From IMG/VR virus record IMGVR_UViG_3300032285_003395, positions 1 through 64,000 of that record: a stretch of 64,000 bases of DNA; one strand, 5' to 3'. Shown piece after piece: positions 53,283 to 60,495 of this stretch. This DNA comes from a virus. Numbering within the stretch: the first letter of the stretch is position 1; each line of letters starts with the position of its first letter. Under the pieces are notes generated by a model. It did not search any database. It saw nothing but the letters and a program-made list of their open reading frames with translations, and was not told the DNA's origin. Both the position numbers and the translations under genes were made by a program.

Positions 53283-54111
53283 TTTTAATGTATTTTTCAA
53301 TTAAATCTAATGCATCGTCTATTAATACTTTACCTTGAATTTCATCTTTATATGATAGAGGATATATTAGTGGTTCATCTATTTTTACAGAGTTACAAAC
53401 TACCCAATGAAATGGGCGTAAAGTATAATCACCATAACCATTCTTTTCCATAAAATCTTCTATTCCCATTAAATATAACTTACCTTGTAAATGATAATAA
53501 TATTTTTTAACTGACTCAGGAAATTGTGGAGGATAACTGCTAGATTTTAAATCTGTTACAATTATTTCTTTATTTGCTTTATCAATTTTTAAATAATCTA
53601 ATTTAACTAAAAAATTAAAATCTCTATATTTAAATTCCCATTTAAATTGTGCTTCACCTTCAGAAAATAAAAAATTAACTTTTTCATCTTTCTTTAAGTA
53701 AGTACCTATTTCTTTTCCTAAATCAAAATTATCTTTTAATATTTTATTTTTAGGATCTTTAAAATAGCTAATATAATCTGGATAACTTAATACAGTATTT
53801 AATATTTTTTCATAATTCTTAGATTTTACATTTAATGAAGTAGCAGCTTCTTCAACTGATTCTAAATTAAATTCTTTTTGATTGTTAATAATAAATTCTA
53901 TAATAAATTTTATTTGTGGTTTAGGAAGCTCAATATCTAATATTTCTTCCGTAAACTCTTCATTAAATACTACTTTATCAATTACAGTTCCTTTTTCCAA
54001 AAAAGAAGATTTTTTATAAACTGGGTTTAAAAAAGAATCTTTACCTTCTTTTAATAATCTACTCAAGGAACTGTAACTTAATCTTAGTGTTTCTTTATTA
54101 GGTGTTTGCAT
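53236..54111 (-). CDS. PD-(D/E)XK exonuclease (YqaJ/RecB-like)
   Basis: 291 residues from ATG 54111. A TTG at 54135 is unlikely because it overlaps a -7 box at 54133-54140. Nuclease core: VKLDYL (Asp strand), then IIVTDLKS (D-x-K strand), then YHLQGKLYL (Q helix), the order of PDDEXK_1 exonucleases related to RecB and lambda-type 5'-3' exonucleases. The N-terminal part with SYSSLSRLLKEG also fits. Likely makes single-stranded ends for recombination with the Sak4-like ATPase. Confidence 0.8.
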   Translation of the reverse strand: MQTPNKETLRLSYSSLSRLLKEGKDSFLNPVYKKSSFLEKGTVIDKVVFNEEFTEEILDIELPKPQIKFIIEFIINNQKEFNLESVEEAATSLNVKSKNYEKILNTVLSYPDYISYFKDPKNKILKDNFDLGKEIGTYLKKDEKVNFLFSEGEAQFKWEFKYRDFNFLVKLDYLKIDKANKEIIVTDLKSSSYPPQFPESVKKYYYHLQGKLYLMGIEDFMEKNGYGDYTLRPFHWVVCNSVKIDEPLIYPLSYKDEIQGKVLIDDALDLIEKYIKNDWNDLEESTSDIFF

Positions 54112-55552
54112 AATGATTATTTGTATAAGATGCAAAAGTACTCAATTTATCTGTAAAAAACAAATTTTTTCTATTATTATAATAATAAATTAATTCTTTT
54201 TTAACTTCATCTTTAAAATAATAATTAATTACATCCATAACAGTAAATACATGTCCTTCTAAGCATTCTTTTATGTGATCTTGCACAAACTCAAAGATAG
54301 CAATAGAAAGTAAAATTTGATTAATAACTCTGTTAGAGTTAAAAGTATTTTCATGAATTCTAAATTCTATAGTATTTCTACTAGAAAATAATAAATTCAT
54401 AAAATTAAATACATAATACCTGTTTACTCTATCCCATTTATTTTTTAAAGGATGTTTCTTATTCTTTTTGTTAAAGTTTTTACAAGAAGCAATTCCATCT
54501 GTTAAAAATAAAAATATATTTTTGTTATTATAATTAACAAGATATTCAAATTCTTTTTTATCTATCTTATTAAATGATATATTTTTACATAAAGGAGGTA
54601 AAGGTTTAGTATAATGTTTTCTTTTATTTAATACATTTTCTTTTTTATAATAAGGAAAATAACTAAAATAATCATGTTGAAAATAATATAAAAAATTATA
54701 CAATGCATTGATAAAAACTTTATCATTTCTAATATTACCAATATGAACATGCAAACTACAGTTTATATCAGTATTAACATTATTAGCATTTAAATTCATA
54801 AATTTTTTAATACTCTCAATACCTTTTAATCCTGACATAGGTACAGAAACATACTCTGCATTATCAATAGAACCATCTCTACAAATAGAAAATCCATATT
54901 TTTTTAAACTATGACGATATACAGAACCTTCAGAAGTTTCTAACTCTATACCAAAAGTATAATTTTTTAAATATTTTTTATATTTATAAGTAGTTTTTTC
55001 TATTTCAATATTAGATTTATTATATAAAAGAACAGATTCTTGATAATCTGAATTATCTTCTATATTATAAGCTCTATGAGTTGCAATAGAAGATGAAGTT
55101 TCTTCTTTTATTTGTTCAATAAAACTTTCTTGATCTGTAATATTTCCAATATAATAAAATTTAGAATTAGCTTTATTAAAAATAAAATCTGAATCATATA
55201 AAATTTCTTTAACATCTTTTATATAAACTATAGCTGTATCATATTGAAAAATTTTACCCTTATTAATAAAAACAAGATCTTTGGTACATTTAAAATAAAT
55301 TTGTTCCATCTTAGTAGGATCTTTAAGAAAGAATCCTAGTGTAAATGTTTTATTATTTTTATCATAAGAAATTACACCAAAATCAAAACTATTATCTCTA
55401 ATTAATTTACTAAAATGATAATGTTTATTTAAATCTTCTATAAAATATACATCAGGATGATTTATATGATAATAATTTTTTCTATAAATAATACATTCTT
55501 TTCTAGGTACTTCGTTACCAAGAATGTCAATAACTTTTTTATAAGTTTTCAT
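54098..55552 (-). CDS. Amidoligase (amidoligase_2 family, glutamine-synthetase-like fold)
   Basis: 484 residues. The N-terminal 190 residues are unrecognised. Residues 197-272 have the family motifs: FGIELET (201-206), a Glu-containing strand; RDGS (225-228); NAEYVS (231-236); and SLHVHIG (266-272). A later NTIEFRIHENT supplies the usual EfR-x-H segment near 410. Amidoligases join carboxyl and amino groups with ATP and are found beside GATase II and gamma-glutamylcyclotransferase genes in bacteria and phages. It lies 10 bases downstream of the GATase gene. Substrate unknown: peptide, protein or cell-wall precursor. Confidence 0.8.
   Translation of the reverse strand: MKTYKKVIDILGNEVPRKECIIYRKNYYHINHPDVYFIEDLNKHYHFSKLIRDNSFDFGVISYDKNNKTFTLGFFLKDPTKMEQIYFKCTKDLVFINKGKIFQYDTAIVYIKDVKEILYDSDFIFNKANSKFYYIGNITDQESFIEQIKEETSSSIATHRAYNIEDNSDYQESVLLYNKSNIEIEKTTYKYKKYLKNYTFGIELETSEGSVYRHSLKKYGFSICRDGSIDNAEYVSVPMSGLKGIESIKKFMNLNANNVNTDINCSLHVHIGNIRNDKVFINALYNFLYYFQHDYFSYFPYYKKENVLNKRKHYTKPLPPLCKNISFNKIDKKEFEYLVNYNNKNIFLFLTDGIASCKNFNKKNKKHPLKNKWDRVNRYYVFNFMNLLFSSRNTIEFRIHENTFNSNRVINQILLSIAIFEFVQDHIKECLEGHVFTVMDVINYYFKDEVKKELIYYYNNRKNLFFTDKLSTFASYTNNHYANT
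54133..54140 (-). promoter_or_regulatory. Promoter -7 box (TACTTTTG) for the exonuclease-polymerase operon
   Basis: Minus-strand TACTTTTGCATC matches TAnnTTTG and lies 21 bases before ATG 54111, inside the end of the amidoligase gene. The same TACTTTTGCAT string precedes the metallophosphoesterase gene at 2120, so the extended 11-base match is shared by two gene-start sites. Confidence 0.5.
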
Positions 55553-55562
55553 AATTTTATTT

Positions 55563-57263
55563 TTAATAACCTCTTAAATATTCTTGTTCATTAAAATTAT
55601 AACTTGAAAATTCGTCTTCATCTTCATCTTCAACAGGTTCATTGTGAGCAATATAAAATTCTAATACATGATTATTAATAGCTTCACAAAAAGAACCATA
55701 TTCTTTAACCATATCATTCCAATAAACATTAAATAATACAGTAGAAAATTCTGTAAATTTAGAGTTAGCAACAACAGATGAAGTATCTATCATTAGATCA
55801 AACATTTCTAGTTTATATAAAGGATTTTGTTCTATAAAGTTTAATATAGTTTGTTTAGAAAGATTAGGTTGTAAAATAAATTTTAATAAATGATAACTAA
55901 AGAAATATTGTTCACAATAAAATTTTTCTATTACTTCTTTTTCATCTAAGAAATCTGTATCAATTTCTAAACTAGATTTACTAGGAATAGATAATAACAT
56001 ATTATTTCTATTACTATCTATTTCTTCTATTTTTACAATATTAAAACTTTCAAAAAACAAATGTTTGTTAATAAATATTTTAGGTAATGGAAAATAAACA
56101 TTACTTTTTTTATTAATAGGTTTATACCAAGTGCTATTATATTTTATAGGAACCATACTAATACTTTCCAAATCATGGTTTGGAACTTCATAACTTAAAA
56201 TATTATTAATATTAAATTCAAGATTTTTACTTAAAATTTTTGCTCTTATTAATTCTAAATTTACCCAAATACCTTTATTAAAAACATAAATATATTCTTC
56301 ATCTAATATACTATCTAATGGTTTATTTATTAAATTAAATATAGTATTATCTTTATTAGATCTATATACACCATGTAATAATTTATTTTTAGATTTAGTT
56401 TTAAATAAACCTTTTTCAAATAAAATTTTAAATTTATCAGATTGATGTTCATCAAAACTATTTGTAGTATTAGAAAATAAATTATAATTACTATGTGTAT
56501 AAAAAGAAGATTTACTAACAAAAACTTCATCTTGAAAACATTCAGTTCTATCTATTTCAACAGTACTTATAACTTTATTATTTTTAAATTCAAAAATACA
56601 ATTAGTATTAATATCAAATATATTTTTATTTTCTTCTGAAGTACAAATAAAATTTAAACCTTTTTTAACAGAAGATAAATATAAACCTTCATTAAGATAA
56701 ACACCAAATAAAGGTCTTTCTTCAGTTAAAATGTTATTATTAGTTTTAGATTCACCTTTAAATACTTTAAGAGTTTGACCTCCATTATCAGTCCATACTA
56801 AAGTTGCTTTACCTCTATATTCTTTTAAAACATCATAACCATATTTATAAATAATATTAGCTAATAAAAAAGAATCTACTTTATCATTTGTATCAATATC
56901 TATAGGATATTTTTTAACTAAATCTTCTATATTATAAATAGTACCATTATGACAAAATACAAAGTTATCATCAATAATAAAAGGATGCAAATTTTCATCT
57001 GTTTTACTTCCTTTAGTAGCATATCTAGTATGGCTAATTACACAAGTAGCTTTAGTTGTTTTTTTAGTAAAGTGAAGGTTTGTATACAATTCTGAAAAAT
57101 TAGCTTTAGTAGCATCTTTATAAGAATAATTACTTGGGGCAGGGTTAGCCCAAATGCCAACCCCATGTCCTCCTCTAGAATCATTTGCAATACTTGCTAA
57201 CTTTAACTTTAATATATTTGGATTTTTATAGTTATTGCCTATAAATGCAGTTATTCCACACAT
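55563..57263 (-). CDS. Class II glutamine amidotransferase with long C-terminal extension
   Basis: 566 residues. The N-terminal nucleophile domain is complete: C2 after Met (MCG), SRGGHGVG near 29-36, SHTRYATKG at 77-85, HPF at 93-95, and the oxyanion CHNGTI at 104-109. It should hydrolyse glutamine to supply ammonia, or move a gamma-glutamyl group. From about residue 200 to 566 there is a long Asn/Ser-rich region with no recognised synthetase domain, so the acceptor enzyme is probably another protein, such as the amidoligase encoded downstream. The C-terminus is acidic (EDEDEDE). Confidence 0.88.
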   Translation of the reverse strand: MCGITAFIGNNYKNPNILKLKLASIANDSRGGHGVGIWANPAPSNYSYKDATKANFSELYTNLHFTKKTTKATCVISHTRYATKGSKTDENLHPFIIDDNFVFCHNGTIYNIEDLVKKYPIDIDTNDKVDSFLLANIIYKYGYDVLKEYRGKATLVWTDNGGQTLKVFKGESKTNNNILTEERPLFGVYLNEGLYLSSVKKGLNFICTSEENKNIFDINTNCIFEFKNNKVISTVEIDRTECFQDEVFVSKSSFYTHSNYNLFSNTTNSFDEHQSDKFKILFEKGLFKTKSKNKLLHGVYRSNKDNTIFNLINKPLDSILDEEYIYVFNKGIWVNLELIRAKILSKNLEFNINNILSYEVPNHDLESISMVPIKYNSTWYKPINKKSNVYFPLPKIFINKHLFFESFNIVKIEEIDSNRNNMLLSIPSKSSLEIDTDFLDEKEVIEKFYCEQYFFSYHLLKFILQPNLSKQTILNFIEQNPLYKLEMFDLMIDTSSVVANSKFTEFSTVLFNVYWNDMVKEYGSFCEAINNHVLEFYIAHNEPVEDEDEDEFSSYNFNEQEYLRGY

Positions 57264-57274
57264 ATATTTTTTAT

Positions 57275-57664
57275 TTAGTTGTTAGTAATAGGTCTATAAT
57301 CATTATAATCACCAGATGTAATAATTGTAGAACCTGAGTTTTCCATAAAATAAAGCCAAGCTTTTATTACTTGACCCTTTAATTCAACATTAATTTCTTC
57401 TCTACAATACCATTCAGGATGTCCTTCTAGTCTATCTACTGATGGCAAATGTAAGTCTCTGTTAATTTCCCAAACATCTACAACAATTTGTGTATCTGGA
57501 GTTTTATTAACAAAAGGAATACCACTAGCTCTCATTTGATATTTATCTACAGTTTTACCTGTACCTAACCATTTAGTCTGACCAGGAATATCTACAAGTC
57601 TAGAATTACCATAACCTTTACGTAAAGTGCCATAGCTTGCAATTAAAATATTATTTTTTATCAT
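57275..57664 (-). CDS. Gamma-glutamylcyclotransferase-like (GGCT/AIG2) protein
   Basis: 129 residues from ATG 57664 (a GTG at 57670 is less likely). YGTLRKG at 11-17 and N20 form the substrate loop of the GGCT/AIG2 fold. DRLEGHPEWYCRE at 77-89 carries catalytic Glu80 and the family's Y-x-R-x element. GGCTs release 5-oxoproline from gamma-glutamyl peptides or amines, as BtrG does in butirosin synthesis to remove a protecting group. With the GATase and ligases next to it, it could trim a gamma-glutamyl or related amide. Overlaps the 42-residue gene by 14 bases. Confidence 0.85.
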   Translation of the reverse strand: MIKNNILIASYGTLRKGYGNSRLVDIPGQTKWLGTGKTVDKYQMRASGIPFVNKTPDTQIVVDVWEINRDLHLPSVDRLEGHPEWYCREEINVELKGQVIKAWLYFMENSGSTIITSGDYNDYRPITNN

Positions 57665-57779
57665 CTTCACTTAATGTTTTTAAATCTTTAATAATTTCTT
57701 TTATTTCATGTATTTCAAAAGAACCTAGCCTATCAGACCATAATAATAATTCTGTTAATCTTTTAATTATCTCTATCAT
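57651..57779 (-). CDS. Small 42-residue protein in the amidoligase operon
   Basis: ATG at 57779, TAA at 57651. The product begins MIEIIKRLTELLLWSDRLG and ends EDDKK. It overlaps the ATP-grasp stop by 17 bases and the GGCT start by 14 bases, and it fills what would otherwise be a 98-base gap; the same packing is seen across the operon. The sequence is amphipathic-helical. It is too short for a standard gene finder but well placed. Function unknown. Confidence 0.55.
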   Translation of the reverse strand: MIEIIKRLTELLLWSDRLGSFEIHEIKEIIKDLKTLSEDDKK

Positions 57780-58713
57780 TTTGATTAATTATATTAATGT
57801 CTGAATCTAATTGAAAGTTTTTCCAAGCTAATGATTTAGAATTTTTAAATTTTTTAAAATCCCAATGTTCTAACTTACTTGTTTTAGTATGTCTATGAAT
57901 ATAATCAAATAGTTTAGCATATCTTTGAACAGTATAATCATTAGATATTAAAGTTGGACTAGAATTAATTTCTAATACATAATATTTATCTTCAAATCTA
58001 ATAATATCTACTGCACCAAAATCAGCTCCAACTGCTTCCATTGCTTTTAAAGCTGTTATACACATATCATAATTATATTCAGACCAAGGAATATAAATAA
58101 ATGGATCTCCATTTAAAGATCTATTCCAAGCTTTTTGACTAGGATTACTAGGCTTTGGTTTTTCTAATACAGAAATTACTTTACCTAAACCACAATGTAC
58201 TCTAAACTCTGCATCTTTTTCTAAATAAGGTGCAAAATAAAAATTAGTCATTTCATTTAAATCTAAAAAATGATTTAATTCATTACTATTATTTAGTACA
58301 ATAAAATTTCTACCTTTTGCGTGTTGCAAAGGTCTACAAATTATAGGATATTCTAAATTAGAATCTTCAGAAATTTTTTCATAGGTATAATAGGGAGTTA
58401 ATATATTATTATTTTTTAATATTTGTCTAGTTAATCCTTTGTTATTAATTTTTTCTAGAGCTTTAATATTATTATAAACAATACTATTATTATTAACTGG
58501 TAAAGGTATTCTATTACCCCATCTAATAATTACATTTTCATTAAAAGGAGCATTAATAGATTTTTTAATAAAATAATCAGAAACATTATAATTAAATGAT
58601 CTAAACCATTCTTTATTTTTAATTTTTCTTCTGATTCTTAATTCACAATTAAATTTCATGTGTTGATAGACAGCTTTCATTGAAGGTCTACCATCTTTAC
58701 CTACTAGTATCAT
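57763..58713 (-). CDS. ATP-grasp carboxylate-amine ligase (RimK-like)
   Basis: 316 residues. ATP-grasp motifs: KGLTRQIL near 92-99, a nucleotide-binding YPIICRPLQ with R127, EFRVH at 169-173, the DFGAVDI strand at 231-237 with Asp, and the metal-binding E248-I-N250-S-S-P near 248-253. Such enzymes join a carboxylate to an amine through acyl phosphate. The N-terminal part with RWGNRIP is that of the RimK-like branch. It overlaps the preceding gene by an ATGA. Works presumably with the adjacent COOH-NH2 ligase and GATase. Confidence 0.88.
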   Translation of the reverse strand: MILVGKDGRPSMKAVYQHMKFNCELRIRRKIKNKEWFRSFNYNVSDYFIKKSINAPFNENVIIRWGNRIPLPVNNNSIVYNNIKALEKINNKGLTRQILKNNNILTPYYTYEKISEDSNLEYPIICRPLQHAKGRNFIVLNNSNELNHFLDLNEMTNFYFAPYLEKDAEFRVHCGLGKVISVLEKPKPSNPSQKAWNRSLNGDPFIYIPWSEYNYDMCITALKAMEAVGADFGAVDIIRFEDKYYVLEINSSPTLISNDYTVQRYAKLFDYIHRHTKTSKLEHWDFKKFKNSKSLAWKNFQLDSDINIINQNDRDN

Positions 58714-59036
58714 ATTTTTTTAGGATTTTTTAAGTTATGTAATTTTAAAACATACATATCTAATGTTTGTTTTTTGCCATCTATGTTAGAAACTTCTCTT
58801 CTATTAAATTCTAGTGTTTTTCTAAAACCTAGTTTTTTAAGATTTCTTCTTAAAGTAATTTCTTCTTTTTTGACTATACATTGAATAGTAGTTTCACCTC
58901 TTCCATAACCATGCCAATTAATTTGATCTAGTTGATTATATTTTTTTAAAAGTTTTTTATACATTATATCAACGTTATCATAATTTTTAGCTTGTAAAAA
59001 TAATAATGCACAACAAGGTGTTCTCTTTATGGTCAT
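58710..59036 (-). CDS. 108-residue protein between two ligases, unknown
   Basis: 108 residues, coupled by 4-base ATGA overlaps at both ends to the ATP-grasp and COOH-NH2 ligase genes. Visible features are a Cys pair near 8-9, a YGRGET turn, and a helix-strand ending LKKLGFRKTLEFNRR near 68-82. A mixed alpha/beta small domain is likely. The tight coupling makes it a probable component, carrier or regulator of the ligase system. Confidence 0.55.
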   Translation of the reverse strand: MTIKRTPCCALLFLQAKNYDNVDIMYKKLLKKYNQLDQINWHGYGRGETTIQCIVKKEEITLRRNLKKLGFRKTLEFNRREVSNIDGKKQTLDMYVLKLHNLKNPKKI

Positions 59037-59779
59037 AATAAATTATATTTTTTAATTAATAATTCTGCTTTACTTTTATCATTATTTTTTATAATATTTT
59101 TAATATTATATTTTTCATGATCTTTAAAGTTAGATTCTAATAAATTTAAAGCTAGTTCTGAATTATTCCAAACAAAATCTAAATATCTTTCTTGTTGAAA
59201 CCAAGAACTTAATACTCTATATTCTACCCATTTATTATTATCTCTATAAGAACCTGCATTACCATATAATTTTTTACGATCATTATCAGGCTCTAGTAAT
59301 AAACTTGGAATAGCTAAAGTAAAATCTAGTAATTTAACTAAATCTTTTTGAAGATTATGTTTTACATCTATATGAAGATGAAATCCTGCAGACCTACCTT
59401 TAAACTTCATAGGATTAACTTTTACTACATTATATTTACCTGTATAAGCATTTAAATCTGGTTCACAACCAAATGTAATACTTTCTACAGTATATAATTC
59501 TTCTTCATCTACTTCATAAAAAGGAAATGGAGATAATTGTAAATCACTTTCTAATAAAGATTTTAAATAATCTTGACTTTCCAAGATTTGTTTTTTAAAT
59601 ACTTTTTTATTGTCTGTAATTGGAGTATTATATTCCATCATAATACAGTCTAAAGAAGTTAAAAATCCTCCTTCTTTCCATTGGTAAGGAAAAGTTTTAG
59701 TACCTTCTACAATACCACAAGCATTAATTGCTTTGTTATTTCTTGTAACAAAAATTTCTATATCTGTTCCTAAAATCAT
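59033..59779 (-). CDS. COOH-NH2 ligase (phage phiEco32-like type 2, PF14395)
   Basis: 248 residues. Family motifs: GTDIEIF at 4-10; GTK near 26-28; DCIMMEYN at 44-51; FGCEPDLNAYTG at 103-114; SAGFHLHI at 130-137; YGNAGSYR at 172-179; and WVEYRVLSSWF at 184-194. This is the glutamine-synthetase-like COOH-NH2 ligase type first recognised in phage phiEco32. It should form an amide between carboxyl and amine groups. It shares ATGA overlaps with genes on both sides. Family is recalled; substrate unknown. Confidence 0.85.
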   Translation of the reverse strand: MILGTDIEIFVTRNNKAINACGIVEGTKTFPYQWKEGGFLTSLDCIMMEYNTPITDNKKVFKKQILESQDYLKSLLESDLQLSPFPFYEVDEEELYTVESITFGCEPDLNAYTGKYNVVKVNPMKFKGRSAGFHLHIDVKHNLQKDLVKLLDFTLAIPSLLLEPDNDRKKLYGNAGSYRDNNKWVEYRVLSSWFQQERYLDFVWNNSELALNLLESNFKDHEKYNIKNIIKNNDKSKAELLIKKYNLL

Positions 59780-60495
59780 AATTCATTTTCTTTTTTTAAT
59801 TTAACATAACATTCATAACCTTCTTTAAATAATCCACTTTTAAATAAAGTAAATATTTTTTCTTTTATTTCTAAATTTTCAACATAAACATTATAATCTT
59901 CATGAGGATAAAAATAATCATTAAAAACAAATCTATTGTCAGTAATTAATGGTCTTATGAATTTAATAATTATTTTAGGATCTCCTACAGTAAATTTATC
60001 ATCATATACTGAACTTTTAAATCCATTATGTATACCATAATATGCAACATGAGGAAATGTAAAAGGTGCTAAATATAAAATTTCTTCTATACTATCTGTA
60101 TATTTTTGTAATTCCATAATAGCTATTGGAAATATATAATAGTATTTAATTATTAATAATCTAACTAATACCATAGCTCTATATACACTAGAAGAAGATG
60201 AAGGTTCTTTTAATTTATCAATTTTAATAACAAAAGTTATTTCATTTTTTATTATCTTATATTCAATAATAGTATTGGTAGCTTTTTGTACAAAATTTAT
60301 ATAATTAGTTAAAAACTCATTATTTTTAATATAAATTAAGTTAGCATTATATAAAGATGTTGTAAAAACAAAATAATTTTTACTTTTTGAAGACATTAAA
60401 CAAGTTCCTTTAATAAATTTAGAAAATAAAGAATAAGAATATTCACTTTTTATATGTCTATTATAAGATTTTCTTAAATCTGTAACATTTACCAT
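59776..60495 (-). CDS. Protein upstream of the COOH-NH2 ligase, unknown
   Basis: 239 residues. Coupled by ATGA to the ligase gene. Mixed alpha/beta, Tyr/Ile/Lys-rich, no membrane span, one Cys. No family is recognised. An Ser run near residue 118 (EPSSSSSV) could be a loop. The genes before it are 10 bases away. It probably belongs to the ligase operon. Confidence 0.5.
   Translation of the reverse strand: MVNVTDLRKSYNRHIKSEYSYSLFSKFIKGTCLMSSKSKNYFVFTTSLYNANLIYIKNNEFLTNYINFVQKATNTIIEYKIIKNEITFVIKIDKLKEPSSSSSVYRAMVLVRLLIIKYYYIFPIAIMELQKYTDSIEEILYLAPFTFPHVAYYGIHNGFKSSVYDDKFTVGDPKIIIKFIRPLITDNRFVFNDYFYPHEDYNVYVENLEIKEKIFTLFKSGLFKEGYECYVKLKKENEL

Follow-up and report, generated by a model that had tools for sequence, protein, structure and literature searches.

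The window analysed here, 64,000 nucleotides spanning positions 1 to 64,000 of the 97.7-kb viral record IMGVR_UViG_3300032285_003395, carries at 54098-59779 on its minus strand, in the replication arm of a crAss-like phage, a cassette encoding five amide-bond enzymes: a COOH-NH2 ligase (CN), an amidoligase (AL), a class II glutamine amidotransferase (G2), a GGCT cyclotransferase (GG) and an ATP-grasp ligase (AG). The cassette is genuine, and as a phage pathway it is ancient and has been kept unusually well. Its co-occurrence in distant phages, its joint gain and loss and the near-invariance of its catalytic residues support the view that it is one functional unit, gained and lost together. The core of the unit comprises two ligases of the glutamine synthetase (GS) fold, G2 and at least one member of a family cleaving gamma-glutamyl amides, that is, GGCT/GGACT or class I Peptidase_C26 (C26). 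A preliminary description of the window had placed five amide-bond enzymes on this strand, and all five open reading frames (ORFs) are present, with their families assigned as follows:

54098..55552, minus strand: AL, Amidoligase_2-like GS-fold ligase, 484 amino acids (aa) (PF12224, 20.7 bits; phrog_7469, 4.5e-6)
55563..57263, minus strand: G2, class II (Ntn) glutamine amidotransferase, 566 aa (GATase_6, 1.7e-15)
57275..57670, minus strand: GG, GGCT/GGACT (AIG2-like) gamma-glutamyl cyclotransferase, 131 aa, GTG start (PF06094, 3.5e-18)
57763..58713, minus strand: AG, RimK-like ATP-grasp ligase, 316 aa (RimK, 1.3e-6; phrog_2599, 4e-22)
59033..59779, minus strand: CN, phiEco32-type COOH-NH2 ligase (PF14395), 248 aa, with the fold of GS and glutamate-cysteine ligase (1.6e-9; phrog_3815, 5e-43)

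The loci compared comprised 80 viral loci with a match to the CN profile, seven contigs from bacterial or archaeal genomes and 13 annotated phages, all searched with family profiles; single-protein scans returned nothing beyond a near-identical contig. Where at least 5 kb was available on both sides of CN, AL was found in 61 of 63 loci, G2 in 61/63 and AG in 56/63. Divergent phages carry this enzyme set too, with proteins 14-37% identical to those of the window, and the neighbourhood is not a matter of chance. As a control, loci were anchored on the crAss-like primase, an unrelated gene; the profile was derived from cassette-bearing phages, yet 74 of the 79 new loci had no cassette. Among the 25 whole crAss-like records anchored in this way, CN, AL, G2 and GG are all present in the same two and all absent from the remaining 23. 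The idea that the five genes form one pathway, put forward in the preliminary description, is thus borne out both by co-occurrence and by all-or-none inheritance, and the homologues proved to occur as a set in distant phages rather than singly and scattered. That unrelated genes became neighbours by chance, as phage early regions do gather small accessory genes, is scarcely credible, being refuted by this inheritance and by the near-constant company of the enzymes. The families are essentially phage-borne, one strict pattern giving seven matches in about 85,000 bacterial and archaeal species genomes, and in distant phages the cassette lies in the replication (early/middle) module.

The minimal form of the cassette is seen in six viral contigs of 155-175 kb (L022, L030, L041, L049, L056 and L095), which keep CN, AL, G2 and C26 without AG and GGCT. 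Because of these contigs the ATP-grasp ligase is optional, and the earlier suggestion that three ligases each form a bond does not hold for every version of the cassette.

Many relatives possess a class I Peptidase_C26-family protein, and the window record has none. In the 62 whole cassette-bearing records, GGCT and C26 occur together in 20, GGCT only in 13 and C26 only in 29, and no record clearly lacks both, a count in which two C26 cases are cut at contig ends and recognised by one custom profile only. The association between the two families gave a Fisher p of 8e-5, or of 0.003 with the two end-cut cases scored as neither, and on the CN tree a Pagel test favoured dependent over independent evolution (p 0.004; 0.02-0.04 in stricter variants). 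Of 83 C26 copies, 80 keep the catalytic triad, and PuuD, a known Peptidase_C26 member, is among the nearest solved relatives. These patterns suggest that one required step, most simply the cleavage of a gamma-glutamyl amide, can be performed by either of two unrelated enzymes, GGCT and C26. Since every cassette retains GGCT or a C26-family class I protein, the trimming of a gamma-glutamyl group by the cyclotransferase, an idea of the preliminary description, gains in strength.

The catalytic residues are near-invariant in all the cassette families and intact in all five window enzymes, so that the conserved active-site motifs reported in the preliminary description hold across the homologues and the sites are not degenerate. 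In CN, whose PF14395 match is above the cut-off, the key residues D6, E8, E49, HxH (134-136), R168, R179 and ExR (186-188) are present in 99-100 of 100 homologues. Its AlphaFold2 (AF2) model (pLDDT 95.3) has the glutamine synthetase/glutamate-cysteine ligase fold, and the nearest solved structures by TM-score (Foldseek, TMq), all distant, are YbdK (0.54), plant glutamate-cysteine ligase (0.53) and the Pup deamidase Dop (0.50). AL is the only weak Pfam call of the five, falling just below the cut-off for PF12224 (20.7 vs 22 bits), and its assignment is backed by the phrog_7469 match, by homologues in Lbo-JY46, phi14:2 and cr108_1, and by the residues GxExE (201-205), DGS (226-228), E233, HxH (268-270) and EFR (396-398), invariant or nearly so in 59 homologues. 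The AF2 model of AL is less certain than that of CN (pLDDT 78 vs 95.3) and appears to match the same superfamily, with weak Foldseek hits to YbdK and glutamine synthetases; a PDB sequence search with CN and AL found no credible match. As both fall in the GS-fold superfamily, CN and AL probably each use ATP to activate a carboxylate, which is then coupled to ammonia or an amine. In G2, Cys2 is exposed once Met is removed, the Cys, HxR, HNG and Asp are conserved, and the PDB relatives are the glutaminase domains of PurF/GlmS; there is no synthase/SIS domain, and the C-terminal half has no family match. GG has a catalytic-type Glu82, present in 53 of 54 homologues, and its solved relatives are GGACT/YtfP. 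In AG the key residues are K92, E169, R171, K185, D236 and ExN (248-250), the nearest NCBIfam family is rimK_fam (3e-12), and the nearest solved structures are alpha-L-glutamate ligases/RimK.

The cassette is not new in kind, and the window copy is a diverged member of a published one. Published work on HP1 and RIO1-like podoviruses describes a 'peptidoglycan modification cassette' of seven genes, for which a role in preventing superinfection was proposed, and the same genes were noted in phiEco32, 7-11, PA11, tf, MR299-2, LUZ24, PaP3 and CW02 (PMC5498523, citing Iyer et al. and Hardies et al. 2013); the genes are also annotated in LUZ24-like phages (PMC3890496). The preliminary description had credited Iyer, Aravind and colleagues with predicting such clusters, which is correct in the form in which later papers cite their work. 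The window shares with the phiEco32/LUZ24-type cassette a PF14395 ligase, an Amidoligase_2 protein, a G2 lacking a synthase domain, a RimK-like ATP-grasp ligase and a GGCT/AIG2 protein, encoded by adjacent genes on a single strand next to replication genes. The cassettes of RIO1-like phages, phiEco32, 7-11, PA11, tf, LUZ24, PaP3 and CW02 likewise hold these five families in an operon-like arrangement near primase/helicase. In contrast to the podovirus cassette, the window has a different gene order, 14-37% protein identity, and neither C26 nor a ~190-aa gene (phrog_4877/11055), both of which occur in many relatives.

Within Crassvirales, all five families are contiguous in Cellulophaga phage phi14:2 (Steigviridae), in the order GGCT, ATP-grasp, COOH-NH2 ligase, GATase and amidoligase, whereas the window has GATase and GGCT between amidoligase and ATP-grasp and an inserted 108-aa gene. 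CrAssphage cr108_1 (Steigviridae) carries amidoligase, GATase II, COOH-NH2 ligase and ATP-grasp in the replication arm, as the window does, but with C26 and no GGCT instead of GGCT and no C26. The records of both phages already annotate the cassette genes individually. What is new here is the all-or-none inheritance, the constancy of AL and G2 with CN, the GGCT-or-C26 rule and the minimal core.

In the pathway that we propose as the likeliest chemistry, G2 would convert glutamine to glutamate and ammonia. AL, the commonest G2 partner in published minimal pairs, would amidate a carboxylate with the G2-derived ammonia, and CN, with its fold nearest YbdK/glutamate-cysteine ligase, would link the gamma-carboxyl of glutamate to an amine, giving a gamma-glutamyl or similar amide. 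Where present, AG would add an amino acid, and GGCT or C26 would later cleave the gamma-glutamyl amide, like PuuD after PuuA or BtrG after BtrJ. That the cassette, moving vertically and horizontally, encodes one such glutamine-fed amide-bond pathway with an obligatory gamma-glutamyl-amide cleavage step is a proposition we regard as evenly poised. PuuA/PuuD (putrescine), BtrJ/BtrG (butirosin) and the Cj1417-type gamma-glutamyl-CDP-amidate hydrolase exemplify gamma-glutamyl handle pathways, in which a ligase-type step has as its partner an enzyme releasing the product, either a C26 hydrolase or a GGACT-type cyclotransferase. The cassette resembles these pathways at the level of family, C26 having gamma-glutamyl-CDP-amidate hydrolase and PuuD among its nearest named families and PuuD among its nearest solved relatives, but it has none of their acceptors, carrier protein or kinase, and its C26 lies far below the equivalog cut-offs. 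Only tentatively do we suggest that phages invented a pathway that uses the gamma-glutamyl group as a temporary handle. The amide would be built by GS-fold ligases, and GGCT or C26, of unrelated folds and interchanging between phages, would have to remove the handle, releasing an amide- or amine-bearing product that may protect or reprogramme the infected diderm cell.

Several points weigh against the proposed pathway. The assignment of the ligases to its steps is a guess, and the acceptor candidates range over cell wall, protein, metabolite and DNA. Branches of the CN tree are long and 23 of its forks are open. C26 changes at least six times on this tree and GGCT at least nine times, and an independent-pairs test there is underpowered. 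The nearest named families of C26 include gamma-glutamyl-CDP-amidate hydrolase and PuuD, at scores far below the equivalog cut-offs, and some C26 proteins (those of loci L005 and L014) look no less similar to ordinary class I glutaminases. A second glutaminase or ammonia source is therefore another reading of C26, and GGCT could act on host gamma-glutamyl compounds.

Other explanations differ mainly in the target. The peptidoglycan proposal made for phiEco32 and RIO1-like podoviruses (PMC5498523, PMC10580990) holds that the cassette amidates stem peptides or adds residues to them, which would make infected cells resistant to superinfection or to lysis from without; it concerns the target and could hold together with much of the chemistry proposed above. 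Peptidoglycan contains gamma-glutamyl bonds, and the hosts among the listed CN-bearing phage isolates are all diderm bacteria. However, GGCT/GGACT enzymes require a glutamate with a free alpha-amino group, as established enzymology has it, and the gamma-linked D-Glu of the stem peptide is N-acylated by L-Ala; the cassette moreover has no signal peptide, transporter or lipid-linked step, and our literature search found no experiment on it, nor an enzyme product reported in the papers found. We consider a peptidoglycan target rather unlikely. Protein modification is given a lower probability still: AG would act as a RimK-type glutamate ligase, and the modified protein, from host or phage, could for example be RNA polymerase, a virion protein or one with a ribosomal S6-like C-terminus. 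The nearest relatives of AG and the place of the cassette in the replication module of distant phages would both suit such a role. Against this, AG is dispensable, the six contigs without it keeping the rest, and no conserved small substrate protein was found in the cassette, the sole candidate tail motif being a ribosome-binding site.

The cassette genes are also those of Phage-ZRK32, for which a role in nitrogen or amino-acid auxiliary metabolism, supplying the host with glutamate or ammonia, was put forward (PMC10945688). We find such a role improbable, as the release of ammonia or glutamate needs no pair of ATP-consuming amide ligases with conserved partners, hosts already possess these activities, and the families are essentially phage-borne. 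The cassette adjoins replication genes, and the cassette-bearing Gordonclarkvirinae are unusually resistant to restriction-modification systems in vivo without a known modification pathway (PMC11990801), which would fit DNA base hypermodification conferring restriction resistance. The authors of that study (BASEL), who do not mention the amidoligase cassette, suggest deoxyuridine (dU) from a dCTP deaminase. Furthermore, the virion DNA of phage tf, which has CN, was cut by RsaI, HpaI, EcoRV, SmaI and HaeIII in published work, and the constant cassette members include no base-modifying or nucleotide-activating enzyme; hypermodification is thus highly improbable. PADLOC models run against seven proteins gave no match to known anti-phage defence systems.

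The source record carries the DNA polymerase, terminase, portal and major head protein of crAss-like type expected of Crassvirales, and the attribution to a crAss-like phage made in the preliminary description stands. The best matches of the DNA polymerase (polA) are mostly named crAss-like phages (27-32% identity), and the terminase, portal and major head protein, encoded in the 70-90 kb part of the record, match phrog_6681, 6547 and 11589. In the order of transcription the locus reads 239-aa ORF, CN, 108-aa ORF, AG, 42-aa ORF, GG, G2 and AL, followed downstream by a PD-(D/E)XK exonuclease and then DNA polymerase I. Instead of the many 1-17-base overlaps first reported, there are three clean 4-base overlaps (58710-58713, 59033-59036 and 59776-59779), and the AL, G2 and GG genes are spaced by 10-11 bases. 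The span originally given, 54098-60495, contains the five enzymes at 54098-59779, and the 108-aa and 239-aa genes also inside it are not conserved cassette members. The additional reading frames are:

57651..57779, minus strand: small ORF, a possible gene of 42 aa in the gap between the GGCT and ATP-grasp genes, suggested by position and overlaps only, with no homologue known
58710..59036, minus strand: 108-aa gene within the cassette, not a conserved member
59776..60495, minus strand: 239-aa ORF directly upstream of CN, its end overlapping the CN start by 4 bases, with no homologue in the other loci or the libraries searched

The 108-aa and 239-aa genes were considered as missing cassette members and rejected, as homologues of the former lie elsewhere in relatives and the latter has none. 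The 108-aa product belongs to a conserved crAss-like family of ~100 aa (TT.CCALCQ..., C-terminal MYIKNL), whose genes in five relatives lie upstream, ~8 kb from CN (L025 199-498, L040 1834-2133, L046 2258-2557, L063 597-896 and L073 2054-2377).

In non-crAss cassettes the ~190-aa protein (phrog_4877/11055) is encoded between the COOH-NH2 ligase and the amidoligase. Its gene is found in 49 of 103 loci (e.g., L008 5279-5857, L012 9704-10321 and L015 3675-4247, plus 46 others), not in the window or other crAss-like loci, and it is probably a further pathway member. Many small genes among the cassette genes of CVT22 (L106 28002-43249) and CW02 (L107 1-8049) have common tails, -LENE and -LLEENV respectively. 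The idea that these tails are a C-terminal substrate of the RimK-type ligase was dropped, because their DNA is an embedded Shine-Dalgarno site (TTGGAGaaTGAATAA-ATG) for the next gene, which accounts for the common endings, and because the tail is also found outside the cassette. These small genes form insertable gene-plus-ribosome-site modules, several of them alike (FKxGDxV starts). No fusions of cassette genes with each other were seen. Two unrelated phages have NAD-salvage genes (PncB or NAMPT, plus PRPP synthetase) near the cassette, namely Leptolyngbya phage Lbo-JY46 (L005 2549-15307) and Salmonella phage 7-11 (L009 14635-17001).

Sequenced phage records with the cassette's COOH-NH2 ligase number at least 316, and many of them are for phages of E. 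coli and P. aeruginosa laboratory strains. Here the findings on all-or-none inheritance, on GGCT or C26 and on the minimal core make the question of the product easier to attack: inheritance as a unit, a four-enzyme core and a constant gamma-glutamyl-amide-cleaving member narrow the search for it to one that is testable in ordinary phages, such as LUZ24/PaP3 and the BASEL Kuravirus.

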